From a virus: a DNA stretch of 53,037 nucleotides. The first letter of the stretch is position 1; each line of letters begins with the position of its first letter. Made by a program: the position numbers and the translations under genes. This document shows positions 9,116 through 50,607 of the stretch, in pieces. The notes beneath the pieces were generated by a model. That model made no database searches and was not told where the DNA came from. It saw only the letters and a program-made list of their open reading frames with translations. The DNA is taken from the IMG/VR virus record IMGVR_UViG_3300028840_001807, positions 1-53,037 of that record; one strand, given 5' to 3'.

Positions 9116-9180
9116 GCACAAATCTATCACCATTCGGACATGAAGGGATATAAACCTACATGACCGTATAAGGTGATGTG

Positions 9181-10203
9181 ATGAAACAGAAATATGAGTC
9201 ATACAATATGACACAGCGACTTCTCGACCAGATTAAAGTTATCAACGGTGTTGTTGAGTCCTATGCCAAACAGGGCTATAAATTGACATTGAGGCAACTG
9301 TATTACCAGTTGGTTTCCAGAGGAATAATCCCAAACAAAGACACCGAATACAAGAAACTATCAGATTTACTCGTAAAGGCGAGGATGTCTGGTCTTGTCG
9401 ATTGGGACGCGATAGAGGACAGGACAAGGGTTCCGAAGCTCGATTACTCAGTTGACGACATTCCAGATGCCATTGACGATACCATCAGTCAGTACAAGTT
9501 AGAACGATTACAAGACCAGAAAGTGTATATCGAAGTCTGGTGCGAGAAGGACGCATTGAGCAACATCCTTCGGAGAATGACCAACAAATTCCATGTCAGG
9601 TTGATGATAAACAAAGGATACTCAAGTGCAAGTGCAATGTATCGTGCGGCCCAAAGGTTCAGGAGACACGGAACAGGAAAGAAAAAGATACTTCTGTATC
9701 TTGGTGACCATGACCCTTCGGGACTCGACATGATAAGGGACATAGGCGATAGATTGAATACATTCGGCGTAAGACTGGACACACCAGACGGTTATCCGAT
9801 TCACTTGGGTATTACAAGAGAACAGGTCGAGGAATACGAACCGCCTGAAAATCCAGCAAAGATTACTGACCCACGAGCCGAGTGGTACATCGAAGAACAT
9901 GGAGAAAGTTCATGGGAAGTCGATGCTCTCGAACCATCAGTCCTAAACGAGTTGATCGAGAACGAGATATTCGAGTGGATTGATGAGGACAGGTTCAGGA
10001 ACAAAGTCAAGCAAGAGAACGTTGACAAGTTGAAACTTGAAAATCTCAAGGACTTGATCGATGACCTCGATGTAAATATCGAAGTGTCATGTGTGAACTG
10101 TTCTGAACAAGTCCAGGCCGATGACGATGATACTATATACGACATGGATGATGACAAATGGTTCTGTGGTAATGAGTGTCACGATGAATACAATGCCGAG
10201 TAA
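9181..10203 (+). CDS. Toprim-domain protein with C-terminal zinc finger
   Basis: The central part has VYIEVWCEKDALSNIL (Toprim glutamate) and about 60 residues later ILLYLGDHDPSGLDM (DxD), the metal-binding set of topoisomerase VI A/Spo11 and primase Toprim folds. The N-terminal 90 residues contain LRQLYYQLVSRGIIPN, a winged-helix-like segment as in Top6A-related phage proteins. I do not see the active Tyr with confidence. The C-terminus adds CVNC and CGNEC knuckles (zinc). It may nick or manage DNA during replication. ATG at 9181 follows AAGGTGATGTG; the GTG just before is in frame. Confidence 0.65.
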   Translation: MKQKYESYNMTQRLLDQIKVINGVVESYAKQGYKLTLRQLYYQLVSRGIIPNKDTEYKKLSDLLVKARMSGLVDWDAIEDRTRVPKLDYSVDDIPDAIDDTISQYKLERLQDQKVYIEVWCEKDALSNILRRMTNKFHVRLMINKGYSSASAMYRAAQRFRRHGTGKKKILLYLGDHDPSGLDMIRDIGDRLNTFGVRLDTPDGYPIHLGITREQVEEYEPPENPAKITDPRAEWYIEEHGESSWEVDALEPSVLNELIENEIFEWIDEDRFRNKVKQENVDKLKLENLKDLIDDLDVNIEVSCVNCSEQVQADDDDTIYDMDDDKWFCGNECHDEYNAE

Positions 10204-10223
10204 TCGGCAACCTTTACCTTTAT

Positions 10224-10374
10224 GGGTCTGTGGCTCAGTTAGGCAGAGCGTCGGGCTTTTAAGGTCATGTGGCGAGGTTCACTATCTCCGTTCCAAGCTG
10301 AATGATGAGAAACTGATTGACCCACATGATTTGGAGATACCCGATGGTCGCAGGTTCAAATCCTGCCAGACTCG
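10224..10374 (+). tRNA. tRNA-Lys(UUU) with 77-nt intron
   Basis: Acceptor GGGTCTG pairs with CAGACTC (10367-10373), discriminator G. The D arm is GCTC/GAGC. The anticodon stem TCGGG/CCCGA has loop CTTTTAA. The T arm GCAGG-TTCAAAT-CCTGC is canonical. Anticodon TTT is at 10258-10260. The intron, 10262-10338, interrupts position 37/38. A bulge-helix-bulge is visible: CTTT (10256-10259) pairs with GGAG (10333-10336), flanked by 3-nt bulges TAA and ATA cut after their second base. The intron is closed by TCATGTGG/CCACATGA. CCA is not encoded. Confidence 0.93.
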
Positions 10375-10399
10375 TAATCATACGCAACAATAACTCAAG

Positions 10400-10536
10400 A
10401 GCGAGGTAGGGTAGTCTGGTAATCCCAATGGGCTCATGAGTCGGATGTGAAGTTTCTGCCCTGATCCTCCACTGATGACACCAGTCACCATGATTGAGAA
10501 ACCCATTAATCTGTGGTTCGAATCCACACCTCGCTA
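10400..10536 (+). tRNA. Initiator tRNA-Met(CAU) with 62-nt intron
   Basis: Acceptor AGCGAGG pairs with CCTCGCT (10529-10535), discriminator A. Its A1-U72 pair and the three G-C pairs (GGG/CCC) closing the anticodon loop CTCATGA are the marks of archaeal initiator rather than elongator tRNA-Met. T arm TGTGG-TTCGAAT-CCACA. Anticodon at 10435-10437. The intron, 10439-10500, again splits 37/38 with a bulge-helix-bulge: CTCA (10433-10436) pairs with TGAG (10495-10498), bulges TGA and AAA. The intron carries C/D-box-like motifs (see findings). Confidence 0.92.
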
Positions 10537-10538
10537 TC

Positions 10539-10696
10539 GGGTAACACCGACACATGGCAGGTAGCATGAAGTCCGGTCTATCTGAAGTCGCCGAATGCGT
10601 GTACTGGTGGCTATCGGGCGTGATGCCACATCTTCTTTGCTGGCTGGCATTAGAAACTCCAACAGAGCACGATACTACGGTTTGTCGGTGTTATCC
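10539..10696 (+). ncRNA. Unknown structured RNA closed by a 14-bp stem
   Basis: GGGTAACACCGACA (10539-10552) pairs with TGTCGGTGTTATCC (10683-10696), 14 bp with one G-U. Inside, GTAGCAT (10561-10567) can pair with ATACTAC (10672-10678), CCGGT with ACTGG (10573-10577/10603-10607), and TGATGCCA with TGGCATTA (10621-10628/10645-10652). No convincing reading frame. It begins 2 nt after the initiator tRNA and ends 1 nt before a C/D-box-like RNA, so it probably belongs to the same RNA precursor. I recognise no family. Confidence 0.65.
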
Positions 10697-10697
10697 A

Positions 10698-10808
10698 TAT
10701 CCGTCGATGATGAGTGCGACCAGAGTTGATCCATCAGATGCTTGAGAAAAGGGACTGCTGCACTGCCCTGTTGGGAGATGACATAGTTCCTCTAAACTGA
10801 GACGGATA
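10698..10808 (+). ncRNA. C/D-box-like small RNA
   Basis: TATCCGTC (10698-10705) pairs perfectly with GACGGATA (10801-10808). Box C (ATGATGA, 10707-10713) follows the 5' arm and box D (CTGA, 10797-10800) directly precedes the 3' arm, the arrangement that forms a kink-turn bound by L7Ae. Possible inner boxes are TTGA (10742-10745) as D' and GATGA (10777-10781) as C'. At 111 nt it is about twice the usual archaeal C/D sRNA length, so the inner part may be non-standard. It would guide 2'-O-methylation; the target is unknown. Confidence 0.6.
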
Positions 10809-10833
10809 ATCATTCGCATATGGATGTGATGTG

Positions 10834-11721
10834 ATGGCTGTAAAGAAAAAGCAAGATAAACTGGCCAAAGAGCCAGCAAGTGCCAATTTCAAGGCAAGGA
10901 TTGAGTGCAGTCTGCTTCGTGGAATTGCGTCAAGTATTTCCATGTTGACAGATGAGGCGAAGTTCAAGATTGGCAAGAAAAAGTGGGTTATACAGGTCGT
11001 TGATCCAGCACACATTGCCATGCTTGAATTGGAGATTGATGTCAGCAACTTCGAGGATTATATCTGCAAGAAAGAAGGTGTCGTAGGAGTTGACATAGAC
11101 AAATTGCATGACGCAATCAAGTACGTCAAGGACAGGGACATTGTCAGGATTGAAACCGACATTCTGAAAGTGACAAGAGAGAAAGAAGGTAAGGACGTTG
11201 TCGTGAACATCGACAGGATAAAGATTGACGATGGCCTATGTTCAAGACGTTTCAACCAACCAGACACGCTTGGAATGTCAGAACCGAAAGTTCCAAATCT
11301 GAATCTGAAGTCCAACTTCGAGATGACATGGGTAGATTTCGGTGACGCTTTGAAGCGTTTCCAGAAAATATCAGACCATGTCAAGATTGCGTGCTTCGAG
11401 GAAGGCATTGAACTGTCAGTCGAGGGCGACATCGACGAGTGCGTTGTCAAGAAGCCGAAAGACCTACTGGTATCATACGAGTTCGGCGGTGTCGAGGATG
11501 AAACAAGGAAAGACCATATCAGGTCATTGTACCCATTGGACTACATGACCAGTCCATTCAAGTCATCAAAGATGTCTGGCATGAGTCCGTTGTTCAAGCA
11601 CGAACGATGGCTCAACGTGTGCAAGTTCTCATTGAGTGATGACTATCCGATCAAGATTGAGGCCCAGAGGAACGGTGTCAGTATAACATATCTACTGGCC
11701 CCACGCATTGAGAGTGAATAA
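10834..11721 (+). CDS. PCNA-type sliding clamp (copy 1)
   Basis: After a lysine-rich lead of about 20 residues come VVDPAHIAMLELEI (as VDPANVAMV...L in archaeal PCNA), GVDIDKLHDAIKYVKDRDIV (the GVDL.kL..iL.r segment) and the C-terminal strand YLLAPRIESE, which is almost the canonical PCNA end. At 295 residues it is longer than the usual 245-250 because of the N-terminus and an insert near residue 230. It should form a ring that tethers polymerase or nuclease to DNA. It shares little with copy 2 at 14966. ATG at 10834 follows GTGATGTG. Confidence 0.85.
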   Translation: MAVKKKQDKLAKEPASANFKARIECSLLRGIASSISMLTDEAKFKIGKKKWVIQVVDPAHIAMLELEIDVSNFEDYICKKEGVVGVDIDKLHDAIKYVKDRDIVRIETDILKVTREKEGKDVVVNIDRIKIDDGLCSRRFNQPDTLGMSEPKVPNLNLKSNFEMTWVDFGDALKRFQKISDHVKIACFEEGIELSVEGDIDECVVKKPKDLLVSYEFGGVEDETRKDHIRSLYPLDYMTSPFKSSKMSGMSPLFKHERWLNVCKFSLSDDYPIKIEAQRNGVSITYLLAPRIESE

Positions 11722-35350: not shown

Positions 35351-38335
35351 TTACTTGCAGACTCGTTTTCTGGTCTTTGGATCTGTGTAACACCGTTCAT
35401 GGATATCGGCTGCTGGTAGTTGAGGAGAAGTCGTCAATGCACCGCCAACGGCATCTATGTCATAGGCCCATTTCTTTCCGTCAGAACGGACTTCGAATTC
35501 CCTGAACAGTTCGGCAGAGATGTTATTGATGTTCTCATTTAATATTTCATTGACAGCGACAGGGTGAGTGATTATGGCTTTGTACATGACCGCACCCTTT
35601 CCGTGATCGTGGTTGATTGGGTCTATCCATGTGACATCGGCATCCCACCAGAGGTCAGATAGAATTCCAGCCTTCAGGTATTCTGTCTTGTCGTGATAGA
35701 AGTTGAAATAAACGAGAGACTCGCCTACTCTTGGCTTCAGCTTCATTTTCATTAGTTCAGGGTCATCGTAGTTCATTTCTTTGTGTTCGCCTCTGTGAAA
35801 AAAGACACCAGAAATCTCAACGGAGAATGGGTTGTCATCGTATCTCTTGACATTGTCCATCGAGAAATAGACATCGATCAATGACGAATGCTCTGACTCC
35901 TGTTTAGGTTTTTTTTTATCGGATTGTCTTTCGAGGATTGAACGTAGATTGGCAACTATCTGATCTCTCTGCTCTCTTGGAATTGGATTTCCATCCTTGA
36001 GTTTGACATGGGAGACTCTGGCTATCGCATTGCGAAGGTGAGGCAGGTCGATGTTGCCTCTCTCGTCTTTGTATGGAAGGTGTCGGAGAGTTCGGGGAAC
36101 GGTCTTGCCCTGTTCGTCCTTCTTTCCACCAGACTCGACTAGTGCGAAGGCAGAGTCGGGAAGGTCGTTGATGTATTTGGTATCCCAGACTTCATGGAGT
36201 CTGAATACAACGCCTTTGTGAGAGTGATCACCAGCTGAGGAACGGATATGGCTTCCAGTTGAACCAGATAGTCTGGCATGGAATTCAACGCTCTCCATGA
36301 GCTCGTTCTCGTCCTTTGCCTCTGTAATCTCGATCAATTTCATGTGTTCTGTCATGCCAACTACGTACTCAAGTGCCTGAAGTCTCTCATGCAGAGGTTT
36401 GTCCTTGACACATTGACCATCAATCCATCTCAAATCGAACACGGTTGAATACATTCCAGTGTCATTGGACTTGATCTTTCGGCCAAGATACTTGATGACA
36501 GGTTCCTCACCATAGAACTTTCCTTTGCGGTATCCTTGCGCCCAACCAGTGATGAAAGCGTCGATTGTGAAGTTATGTTCTATTCCTGCCAGTTCTTTTA
36601 TCAAGACTGGGAACTTGACAGAGCAATCTACTTCGTTCTCTCCGTCTATCGCATGGATGGTGACTTCATCCCCTCTCTTTCTGATGACGCAATGCAGACC
36701 ATCTGGCATTTCGTGGACTATGGCCGGGAACGTGAACGATTTGTTTATCTCGTTAATCAGGGTATCTGGCGTGTAGATGTTGTTATCGTATTCCTCTATT
36801 TCAAATTCGTCAATGGAATAGACACCTTCATGTTTCATCGGGAAGTTCGATACGAGTGGCCAGTTAGCGGTTGTCTTTTTGTCGCCTTTCTTGAGTGATG
36901 GGATGGAACGAGGTGAAGTTACCTTCTGGACATGGAATCCAGCAGACTTCATTTTCTTGATCCATTCAGGCTCGTCGCCTATGGAACAGATGAACTTGCC
37001 TTTGATATCCGACAGTATGTCGATGAATTCATCGAGGTCAACCTGTCCGATCTTGAATGACGCAGCCCTCTTGTCGCCAGACTGGTAATAGGGCGGGTCG
37101 ATGTAAAAGAACGTGTCTTGGCCATCATGTCTTTCTATCGAGTCCCTGAAGTCCTCTCTGGTTATCTCCGCGTTCTTCATTCTATCACGGATACGTTCAA
37201 AACGCTTTGGCTGATTGAGAGTGCAAGTGTGACCTTCGTCAGAGCTGTCGAATGACTTGCCCATCGAACCGAATGAGAATGTGGTCTTGTACAAGAACCA
37301 GTGAAGCCAATCCACCTTTGACGATGGTGCTGTCATGTTAACGATTTTCTTGTGGTATTTGGCAGAGCCAGTCCAGTTCTTCTTGACAAGTGTTCTGATT
37401 TCGGCATCGGTGATCGTTTTGAGAGATTTCAATGCCCTGACGTATTCTGGGTTGAGGTCGTTCAGGATTTCGGGGCCATCGGTTGGGTTCTTGGAAAAGA
37501 ATATCGTTGCCGAACCGCAGAACGGTTCAACGAACTTCGAGTGCTTCGGAATGAGTGAGATAATGCGTCTGGCTTGGAGCATTTGACCTGCTGGATGTCC
37601 AAAGGCTCTGGCAACAGCGAATTCATCGTATTCCATGTCTTTTCTCTGGCCAGGAACGGCAGAGCCAGACTTCTCCTTTCCAATGCCAGGTCTATCAAGC
37701 CGTCTCATATCTCCACCACATTCAGGGCATTTAATCTCCTCACAGTGTTTATCAGAGTCCATGATATATTCACAGGTAAGACATTCGCATTTGTACATCT
37801 CGAAGTCTTTCGGTGGGCCAGGTTGGGGTGGAATTCCGACAGGTGGTTCTTGAGGCGGTATCTTAACACCTCTGAGTGGCCTACGGAATTCGTGAGTGTG
37901 TCCATCAGTCTCTTGAATCTCCCACTCGACTATCTTGTGCCTATGGCCCAAGTCCTTTGAAGTCCATCCGTTGCCTTCGTCATCAACTTCAATCGCATGG
38001 TCATGTCCTACTTTCACTGTCGTTCTAATCTCCTCAAAGACTTCATGAGCCTCAAAATACGGATGTCTGCCCTGTTCTACAAGTGAAGTGTTGCCGACGT
38101 AGTTTGAAATGTATTTCTCATCGACAGACTTCACCTTCACCCATGCATTATCCTTCACTTTGTGTTCTCTGTTCCAGATAGACCAGGCTACGGCTTCAGG
38201 AGATCTGACCTTGCGCTTCTCTCTCTTTATAGCGTCACGGATCTCGGCCCACCTGTTCGCTTGGGCGAGTGTCAGAGGAATTCCTCTGTGCTTCTTTATG
38301 CTATCAGGCACTTCTGTCAAATTTGACCAGGGCAT
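35351..38335 (-). CDS. Multidomain capsid maturation protein with embedded DNA adenine methylase
   Basis: 994 residues. Residues 1-60 have a phage-type N-domain (IPLTLAQANRWAEI, SPEAVAWSIWN). Residues 180-206 are a zinc ribbon. Residues 240-480 are a D12-class N6-adenine methylase (VEPFCGSAT motif, DPPY at 413-416). Residues 500-690 look like a DNA-ligase adenylation domain (VFDLRWIDGQ, PLHERLQAL) in which the catalytic KxDG reads MPDG, so it should be dead. Residues 724-800 match DUF6582-type segments (LPDSAFALVE, LRHLPYKDERGNIDLPHLRN). Residues 806-994 resemble prohead protease ends (GGALTTSPQLPAA). It starts right at the portal stop. Confidence 0.65.
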   Translation of the reverse strand: MPWSNLTEVPDSIKKHRGIPLTLAQANRWAEIRDAIKREKRKVRSPEAVAWSIWNREHKVKDNAWVKVKSVDEKYISNYVGNTSLVEQGRHPYFEAHEVFEEIRTTVKVGHDHAIEVDDEGNGWTSKDLGHRHKIVEWEIQETDGHTHEFRRPLRGVKIPPQEPPVGIPPQPGPPKDFEMYKCECLTCEYIMDSDKHCEEIKCPECGGDMRRLDRPGIGKEKSGSAVPGQRKDMEYDEFAVARAFGHPAGQMLQARRIISLIPKHSKFVEPFCGSATIFFSKNPTDGPEILNDLNPEYVRALKSLKTITDAEIRTLVKKNWTGSAKYHKKIVNMTAPSSKVDWLHWFLYKTTFSFGSMGKSFDSSDEGHTCTLNQPKRFERIRDRMKNAEITREDFRDSIERHDGQDTFFYIDPPYYQSGDKRAASFKIGQVDLDEFIDILSDIKGKFICSIGDEPEWIKKMKSAGFHVQKVTSPRSIPSLKKGDKKTTANWPLVSNFPMKHEGVYSIDEFEIEEYDNNIYTPDTLINEINKSFTFPAIVHEMPDGLHCVIRKRGDEVTIHAIDGENEVDCSVKFPVLIKELAGIEHNFTIDAFITGWAQGYRKGKFYGEEPVIKYLGRKIKSNDTGMYSTVFDLRWIDGQCVKDKPLHERLQALEYVVGMTEHMKLIEITEAKDENELMESVEFHARLSGSTGSHIRSSAGDHSHKGVVFRLHEVWDTKYINDLPDSAFALVESGGKKDEQGKTVPRTLRHLPYKDERGNIDLPHLRNAIARVSHVKLKDGNPIPREQRDQIVANLRSILERQSDKKKPKQESEHSSLIDVYFSMDNVKRYDDNPFSVEISGVFFHRGEHKEMNYDDPELMKMKLKPRVGESLVYFNFYHDKTEYLKAGILSDLWWDADVTWIDPINHDHGKGAVMYKAIITHPVAVNEILNENINNISAELFREFEVRSDGKKWAYDIDAVGGALTTSPQLPAADIHERCYTDPKTRKRVCK

Positions 38336-42387: not shown

Positions 42388-42579
42388 GTTGATTATGGAA
42401 GGATACATTGACCAAAAATTGTAGATGTATTCGTTTATATGGATTTTTATATTCGGAATTTTATAAATCTATTCGTTTAAAATCATATATATAAAAGATC
42501 AAATATATATTAAGGCCATAATAATAAATATATATTCTATATAGACCTATATAGGGATATATATTATATATAGAAAAGA
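42388..42579. promoter_or_regulatory. AT-rich divergent control region
   Basis: About 190 bp with no gene. TATTCG occurs at 42428, 42450 and 42470, the outer two as TATTCGTTTA, spaced about two helical turns. Further right are long ATATAT runs and GACCTATATAGGG (42544-42556), a near palindrome also seen near 1890. Candidate operator or replication origin; sequence alone does not decide. Confidence 0.5.
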
Positions 42580-42587
42580 TTTAAATA
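42580..42587 (+). promoter_or_regulatory. Main TATA box of the + arm (TTTAAATA)
   Basis: GATTTAAATACTTATATGCC predicts a start near 42612, with AGGAGGT at 42640 and ATG at 42654. Layout identical to the 1915 promoter. Confidence 0.65.
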
Positions 42588-42653
42588 CTTATATGCCTTT
42601 CTTACTGGTGGAGATAAAAAATATCTCTGACAAAAAAATCAGGAGGTAAAAAA

Positions 42654-42893
42654 ATGGATGATATAGATAATATCTTATCTCTAAACCTTCCATCCGAAAA
42701 CTCGAACGCTGGACGATGGAAGGGGGGGAGATATGATACCAGTAAGAAAGAAGAAATGCAGAAATGGAACAACCTTAAGAATATGGTAAGGTATCAAGGA
42801 GACAATAACGTTGAGGTAAAAAATCGACTTGACAATCTCGCCTCTGCAATCGACCAAGGAATACTGGAAATAAGAAAAGTCAAGACGAAGTAG
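42654..42893 (+). CDS. Small basic protein (79 aa), first gene of the + arm
   Basis: AGGAGGT precedes the ATG. The protein has an acidic start (DDIDNILSLNLPSE), a central basic helix (DTSKKEEMQKWNNLKNMV) and a C-terminal helix. First position behind the divergent region suggests a regulator, but no DNA-binding fold is evident. Confidence 0.6.
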   Translation: MDDIDNILSLNLPSENSNAGRWKGGRYDTSKKEEMQKWNNLKNMVRYQGDNNVEVKNRLDNLASAIDQGILEIRKVKTK

Positions 42894-43019
42894 TTTTGAT
42901 TTTTCTCTCTTTATTTTTTTTACCTATTGATTAAAATCTATGATTAAAAATATTAATGGATGGATGGATGTATGACTAAATATATTGATGGAGAATTATA
43001 TAATCTTATCTATCTGACA

Positions 43020-43307: not shown

Positions 43308-43496
43308 AGTCAAAAACCCACAGATGGTATCCTAAATCATGGGAAAACTACGACAAGTGTCGATGTATTCAGATTATTCAATTTACTGATTGTCGAGTCT
43401 GGACACAAAATGACGATATACAATTCGGCAATAGTCGTATCAATTCAATGTTAAATACTTGGAACTTTTTTAAGTATAGACATACATCCCAACCCA

Positions 43497-43597
43497 GATA
43501 CCATGATGGAGGGATTAAGCGGTCAGAGGATTGAAACATATCATCTGTATCAGAATGACCTTCTGATTTTTCCGCTTCTCGTATCTGTCATGGTATC
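43497..43597 (+). promoter_or_regulatory. Nested hairpin overlapping a start codon
   Basis: GATACCATGA (43497-43506) pairs with TCATGGTATC (43588-43597) over 10 perfect base pairs. Inside it AAGCGG pairs with CCGCTT (43517-43522/43572-43577) and ATCAGAA-TGACC-TTCTGAT forms a hairpin (43549-43567). The outer stem contains the ATG of the next entry. A TATA-like TTTAAGTA (43469-43476) places the transcript start near this stem. Confidence 0.5.
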
Positions 43598-43649
43598 TAT
43601 CTTTATGGGGATTGATTGGTTAAAGTCCAATAATCTCAGTGAGGGATAA
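43503..43649 (+). CDS. Possible single-span membrane protein (48 aa)
   Basis: A frame from ATG 43503 encodes a polar start (GLSGQRIETYHLYQNDL) and a hydrophobic span LIFPLLVSVMVSIFMG, ending TAA one nt before the next ATG. No ribosome site is present, so it would be leaderless. The whole 5' part lies in the strong inverted repeat, so a non-coding reading is also possible. The 195 bp upstream (43308-43502) hold only the TATA-like boxes. Confidence 0.4.
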   Translation: MMEGLSGQRIETYHLYQNDLLIFPLLVSVMVSIFMGIDWLKSNNLSEG

Positions 43650-49537: not shown

Positions 49538-49981
49538 ATGAAGTCGGAGAAGGATGAGTTCATAGACCACATGACCTACGTCTTTTCAGCACCCATCATC
49601 CAGCATCCTATGTGGCCAATCCCAGACAAGATAAAGGATGAGGCGACATTATATCGACTGGCAGAAGTCCAGACTATCAAAAATAAGATGGCAACTGGGT
49701 GGGAAGTGATGGGGTATCTATCCACTCAATCACTAGTCGGCCCACTCGACCATCATTGGTATCAGATTTATATGTATTTGTTCAGAAAATATATGCCAGA
49801 ACAGGCAAAGATGATTGACATCGAGGAAATAGAACTTGGAATAATGGAACAACAAATGTTGGAGAGAATTCAGCGGTGGATGTTCAAACAGCAGTGGGAT
49901 CACATCAAGGTCAAGAGAAAAGAGTCGGAAGCGGAGAAACAAAAGACTCTTGACATAGTATTCGAGGAAGTGAAAGCATGA
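49538..49981 (+). CDS. Hypothetical helical protein (147 aa)
   Basis: ATG at 49538 follows GAGAGGATAA. YVFSAPIIQHPMWPIPDKIK and HHWYQIYMYLFRKYMPEQAK are Trp/Tyr-rich helices; the C-terminus is charged. No family recognised. Confidence 0.6.
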   Translation: MKSEKDEFIDHMTYVFSAPIIQHPMWPIPDKIKDEATLYRLAEVQTIKNKMATGWEVMGYLSTQSLVGPLDHHWYQIYMYLFRKYMPEQAKMIDIEEIELGIMEQQMLERIQRWMFKQQWDHIKVKRKESEAEKQKTLDIVFEEVKA

Positions 49982-50607
49982 ATGAAACCAAAGAAGGATT
50001 GTCGACCATTATCGTGGTCGGACAGGCGAATGGAAAGTATGTCAACGAGGCTGTGACAAAGGAATTCGAGGGCAAGGTATTGATAACGGCGAGGCCCGAT
50101 GGTGCAGTCATCGTTCATAATCTTTCGGCAGGTGTACGACCCATCTGTTACATAGATGGTGGGGCCGAAGTATCGATAGCGAGGAATGTCATAGACGCAG
50201 AGATTGAAGTGTTCTGCAAAACGGAAAGCGGTGAGAACTTGACACTCTCATTCACTGAGGTCATGGCAATACAGGGAATTCCAGACAAGGAATGTGATAG
50301 TCTTGCTCTGGCAATCCTGAAGTGCGTGTTCGATATGGGTGGGAACTATGGAAGGACGACAATAGCAAGAGTATTGACCGGGTCAGTATCCAAGAAGGTG
50401 CTGACGATCAACGTATCGAAGTTGAGTCATTATGGTGTGGCCAAGAGTCACAACATGAAAGAAGTCCTGACATTGATTGACTGGCTCATCGAGGAGAACT
50501 ACATTGCCTACGCAGAGGACACGGAATTTCCGGTTCTCGTCATCACATCGAAGGGACTCGATATACTGGCAGGTGGAGATGAGCTTCCAGTGGAAGTGAA
50601 GGCGTGA
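49978..50607 (+). CDS. NucS N-domain fused to RQC winged helix (209 aa)
   Basis: Residues 30-75 hold GKVLITARPDGAVIVHNLSA then GVRPICYIDGGAEV, the strand pattern of the NucS/EndoMS N-terminal DNA-binding domain (RPDG...VH...G..P). Residues about 105-205 match the RecQ C-terminal RQC domain: GNYGRTTIARVLTGSVSKKV, LSHYGVAKSHNMKEVLTLID, FPVLVITSKGLDIL. The NucS nuclease domain and RecQ helicase domain are both absent. It should bind branched or ssDNA. Confidence 0.65.
   Translation: MNETKEGLSTIIVVGQANGKYVNEAVTKEFEGKVLITARPDGAVIVHNLSAGVRPICYIDGGAEVSIARNVIDAEIEVFCKTESGENLTLSFTEVMAIQGIPDKECDSLALAILKCVFDMGGNYGRTTIARVLTGSVSKKVLTINVSKLSHYGVAKSHNMKEVLTLIDWLIEENYIAYAEDTEFPVLVITSKGLDILAGGDELPVEVKA

Follow-up and report, generated by a model that had tools for sequence, protein, structure and literature searches.

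A stem-closed 158-nt orphan RNA candidate between an initiator-type tRNA and a box C/D-type RNA in a virus of a probable archaeal host

The virus record IMGVR_UViG_3300028840_001807 comprises 53,037 bases, and the window analyzed here is the whole record. Between a gene for a Top6A-like topoisomerase and a gene for PCNA lies an island of RNA units in the order tRNA-Lys, tRNA-Met, a 158-nt orphan RNA candidate (hereafter X), and a box C/D-type RNA, laid out as follows:

9178-10203, Top6A-like topoisomerase gene (PHROG 6247)
10223-10375, plus strand, tRNA-Lys(UUU) with a 77-nt intron (RF00005, 55.2 bits; ARAGORN with introns)
10400-10536, plus strand, tRNA-Met(CAU), initiator-type, with a 62-nt intron (RF00005, 48 bits; ARAGORN with introns)
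10539-10696, plus strand, X, 158-nt orphan RNA candidate (terminal stem, flush placement, G+C, no Rfam match)
10539-10552, plus strand, 5' arm of the 14-bp terminal stem of X, GGGTAACACCGACA (pair probabilities)
10553-10682, plus strand, interior of X (taken alone, folds no better than chance, z +0.33)
10683-10696, plus strand, 3' arm of the 14-bp terminal stem of X, TGTCGGTGTTATCC (pair probabilities)
10698-10808, plus strand, box C/D-type RNA (8-bp terminal stem, C box, D box)
10831-11721, PCNA gene (Pfam)

The two RNA genes flanking X are each independently supported, tRNA-Met by Rfam and ARAGORN and the C/D-type RNA by an architecture scan. tRNA-Met carries A1-U72 and a GGG/CCC anticodon stem, which are marks of archaeal initiators, and so reads from its sequence as an archaeal initiator-type tRNA. 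Intron-containing initiators with the same layout occur in Thermoplasmata, Lokiarchaeota, Altiarchaeota, Micrarchaeota, and others, although no intron-bearing archaeal initiator compared with the viral tRNA was similar enough to identify a host. When 2.9 million viral contigs were scanned for the pattern of such initiators, the one match was due to chance and consisted of two adjacent intronless tRNAs in a contig unrelated to the window. Initiator-tRNA patterns led to no relative of the window. In the C/D-type RNA, an 8-bp stem borders a perfect C box (ATGATGA, 10707-10713) at a distance of 1 nt, and the D box (CTGA) lies at 10797-10800; this combination of terminal stem, C box, and D box occurs nowhere else in the window and in none of 60 shuffled windows, making 10698-10808 a convincing candidate for a box C/D-type RNA. 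At 111 nt it is long for archaea, with 12 nt from the C box to a TTGA D'-like box. Matches of the guide next to box D in Thermoplasmata genomes were no commoner than those of a reversed control, and no target was identified. Within the literature searched, the coverage of which is incomplete, we found no description of an intron-containing initiator tRNA or a C/D-type RNA in an archaeal virus.

The host is most likely archaeal, because the PCNA is 22-27% identical to PCNAs of haloarchaeal and methanogen viruses and because the window shows Shine-Dalgarno sites and a TATA-like box of archaeal type; the virus itself is most probably an unclassified, tailed archaeal virus. A terminase search for relatives recovered a single near relative of the virus (L056, terminase 83% identical), which is 7 kb long and stops short of the RNA island. 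Among 341 genomes from the phylum of locus L085 (Thermoplasmata) and 295 from that of L089 (Methanosarcinales), terminase identity reached only 22-24%. Relatives of the Top6A-like protein were found at 54 loci, none of which has another gene in common with the window, and relatives of the island sought via PCNA and radical SAM yielded no homologue of X. Elsewhere in the window, 35351-38335 encodes a fusion of a D12-type DNA adenine methyltransferase domain with a weakly matched ATP-dependent DNA ligase domain, the relative of which in L056 is 60% identical, and the small protein encoded at 49978-50607 contains an RQC domain (E 2.5e-18) that is not surrounded by a full RecQ helicase. An A+T-rich stretch (42412-42959, G+C 0.285) separates divergent gene blocks and contains AGGAGGT ahead of a small frame as well as, near 42585, a TTTAAATA box; lying close to a turn of the cumulative GC skew, it is possibly a promoter or origin region.

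The ends of X pair in a terminal stem of 14 bp (GGGUAACACCGACA/UGUCGGUGUUAUCC), with 13 Watson-Crick pairs and one G-U. Pair probabilities are 0.98-1.0 for 13 of the 14 pairs and 0.74 for the innermost, and the stem is retained when X is folded in 611 nt of context. The coordinates (10539-10696, 158 nt) and the 14-bp stem given in the initial annotation are both exact, and when the 164-nt stretch around X was dinucleotide-shuffled 2000 times, a stem this good arose only once. Over a whole shuffled 53-kb window, however, about 0.95 stems of such quality and span are expected, and three are observed, so that placement and not the stem alone carries the argument for X. Two further long, near-perfect stems, of similar span, are located in the second low-coding region (43496-43598 and 42597-42750), and the latter encloses a Shine-Dalgarno sequence or ribosome-binding site, a start codon, and a small reading frame. 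Both the expected and observed numbers and the frame-bearing stem at 42597-42750 lend themselves to the explanation that X is a functionless chance inverted repeat in a spacer, which we nonetheless consider quite improbable given the local rarity of the stem, its flush fit with both neighbors, and the raised G+C content of X.

Placement is tight on both sides, as had been noted from the sequence at the outset: 2 nt separate X from the end of tRNA-Met (10536), and 1 nt separates it from the stem of the C/D-type RNA (start 10698). No archaeal TATA-like stretch was found about 26 nt upstream of X, and a promoter does not fit into the 2-nt gap; X would accordingly have to be transcribed together with its neighbors, as part of a longer transcript. 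X is therefore positioned like the RNA unit of a tRNA-sRNA polycistron, directly behind a tRNA and with no space for a promoter of its own. Each of the 32 spacers in the window that measure 40 nt or more has a lower G+C content than X (0.525), and X falls within the top 2.6% of the window in this respect.

The interior of X does not share the distinction of its ends. Folded alone, 10553-10682 gave a z of +0.33, with 125 of 200 shuffles at least as good, and the z of -2.78 for X as a whole is due to the terminal stem. The three internal helices proposed in the initial annotation are hence not supported, since comparable helices would arise in any sequence of such length and base composition. 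That annotation had also described X as having no reading frame, which is literally incorrect, as an ATG frame at 10554-10745 codes for 63 aa and runs into the C/D-type RNA, but which holds for coding signal: every segment of 63 codons taken from the virus genes scores higher in codon usage than the frame, and on this basis the frame was rejected as a protein.

That the terminal stem alone is non-random in X, and borders both neighbors at 1-2 nt, is also what would be expected if X were a spacer hairpin that serves only in processing, its helix separating the tRNA-Met and C/D RNA folds or marking a cleavage site while its loop is degraded. This is the main rival to a separate RNA unit, and we regard it as unlikely. 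An insulating helix needs no G+C-rich interior of 130 nt (0.523), and this interior is unlike the other spacers of the window; in addition, a scan for bulge-helix-bulge sites at the borders of X gave nothing convincing, its candidates being short and many.

X could not be assigned to a known family. The Rfam search that had been named as a check on the initial annotation matched no known class, either at gathering score or at E up to 5 (RNase P, SRP, and 5S included), and the statement that X matches no family stands at the available sensitivity, with no Rfam, H/ACA, C/D, or tRNA match. The C box RUGAUGA and D box CUGA are absent beside the terminal stem of X, the window scan having found this layout only at 10698-10808. 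A simple motif scan for H/ACA units (a hairpin with pocket and kink-turn, with an ANA box 14-16 nt from the pocket), in which 4% of shuffles gave a unit, found none in X and its flanks. No tRNA, with or without introns, was detected in X by Rfam or by ARAGORN with introns, the only ones in the area being those at 10223-10375 and 10400-10536, and a tRNA with other introns or a permuted tRNA was rejected because X has no T-arm. A faint by-eye likeness to RNase P RNA (AUGAAGUCC, ACAGAGCAC) was dropped, since the two segments would not pair and Rfam was silent. A reading of X as antisense to viral genes was likewise rejected, the longest exact complement (11 nt) being no better than the longest sense match (11 nt).

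X might belong to one of the known archaeal RNA classes (H/ACA guide, RNase P RNA, or SRP RNA) but have diverged so far that such models miss it, and an H/ACA box sRNA of 159 nt does exist in Nanoarchaeum equitans (PMC3491384), while the island itself holds another guide-type RNA. Nevertheless, we deem this highly improbable, considering the lack of Rfam matches at E up to 5, of C/D boxes beside the stem, and of any H/ACA unit with kink-turn in X, even though 4% of shuffles produced one, as well as a 14-bp stem closing the whole RNA, which fits none of these classes.

Searches for homologues returned no second X. Searches of phage and plasmid DNA gave nothing or chance matches, the inverted-repeat pair of X had five matches in 2.9 million viral contigs (IMG/VR), all by chance, and neither a further copy in the window nor the repeat pair in 168 genomes of the phylum of L089 was found. 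A covariance model of X had no match in about 1,000 archaeal genomes, comprising the genomes of 12 loci and sets from the phyla of L085 (Thermoplasmata, 341), L089 (Methanosarcinales, 295), L088 (Lokiarchaeota, 195), L092 (Micrarchaeota, 146), and L098 (Altiarchaeota, 29); a model built from one sequence is weak and strict filters were applied to the large sets, and the lack of matches is therefore no proof of absence.

These results bear on the second rival, in which X is a MITE-like inverted-repeat element inserted at the junction of a tRNA-Met/C-D dicistron, with the stem as its terminal inverted repeat and TATC as the target duplication. The inverted ends of 14 bp have a single mismatch as DNA, the G+C content of X is unlike that of the spacers, and TATC is found at both 10535-10538 and 10698-10701, a repeat of at least 4 arising in 1.9% of random placements. 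Excision of X together with one TATC would bring the C/D stem TATCCGTC right up against the tRNA, as in a tight dicistron. However, the TATC repeat is 1 nt off on one side, and an element of this kind would be expected in several copies, whereas no other was found in the window, in viral contigs beyond chance matches, or in the 168 genomes, nor by the covariance model in the archaeal sets. We consider such an insertion improbable.

The explanation we favor, tentatively and at slightly less than an even chance, is that X is an extra RNA unit of a polycistronic tRNA-sRNA transcript in an archaeal tailed virus, protected by its stem and acting in trans. The stem with its significance, the placement, the composition, and the lack of coding signal are observed properties of X, from which we infer transcription, processing, stability, and a role in trans. 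Flush placement, the lack of promoter room, and raised G+C fit a unit of a processed RNA precursor, as the initial annotation had proposed, although the internal fold on which that proposal also relied is no better than chance. In N. equitans, the 5' end of a C/D sRNA located directly downstream of tRNA-Val is produced when RNase Z processes the 3' end of that tRNA (PMC3491384); by the same logic, RNase Z acting behind the viral tRNA-Met would expose X. One transcript would run through all units of the island, from which the tRNAs would be excised by RNase P and RNase Z and their introns removed by the splicing endonuclease. The RNase Z cut behind tRNA-Met would produce the 5' end of X, and the C/D unit, bound by its own protein complex, would define the other border. 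The blunt 14-bp stem joining the ends would then block exonucleases, allowing an RNA of about 158-160 nt to accumulate, which might act in trans as a noncoding RNA of the virus, perhaps by binding protein or RNA as a decoy or by serving as an unconventional guide; a decoy or guide is the most likely kind of role on inference only.

Counting against a separate RNA unit, the interior folds like shuffled sequence, X is a single sequence for which no homologues were found, about one stem of such quality is expected in each shuffled window, and the C/D guide gave no target matches beyond the reversed control. Overall, X has a real and well-placed terminal stem, and an extra RNA unit is plausible. 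We think it unlikely, on present evidence, that X represents a new class of stable viral noncoding RNA, freed from a tRNA/C-D polycistron by host tRNA-processing enzymes and acting during infection on RNA modification or translation in the host. Should X prove to be a stable RNA, this orphan would share one precursor with intron-containing tRNAs and a C/D-type guide, and an archaeal virus would be using host RNase Z to release these several kinds of RNA, offering a route to testing how archaeal viruses reshape host translation.

MITE-type non-autonomous elements are small and non-coding with inverted ends, features that X shares, but X is present as a single copy and its target duplication is imperfect. 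Phage tRNA clusters may carry extra noncoding RNAs such as GOLLD RNA, and X similarly is a candidate viral noncoding RNA adjoining tRNA genes, although it is much smaller than GOLLD, has no Rfam match, and is probably associated with an archaeal host. X resembles the archaeal H/ACA box sRNA of N. equitans (PMC3491384) in length, but is closed as a whole by its stem, with no ACA-bounded hairpins with kink-turn found. As in the tRNA-sRNA dicistron of the same archaeon (PMC3491384), a candidate sRNA unit lies directly behind a tRNA, with a 5' end presumably from RNase Z, in a neighborhood with a C/D-type RNA and an intron-containing tRNA-Met. Unlike the N. equitans sRNA, X is viral, lacks C/D boxes by its stem, is much longer (158 nt), and has a 14-bp closing stem, and the precursor here would consist of four units between two protein genes rather than a dicistron. 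The principle of the tRNA-sRNA polycistron is already known from the Nanoarchaeum dicistrons, and X itself is an orphan.
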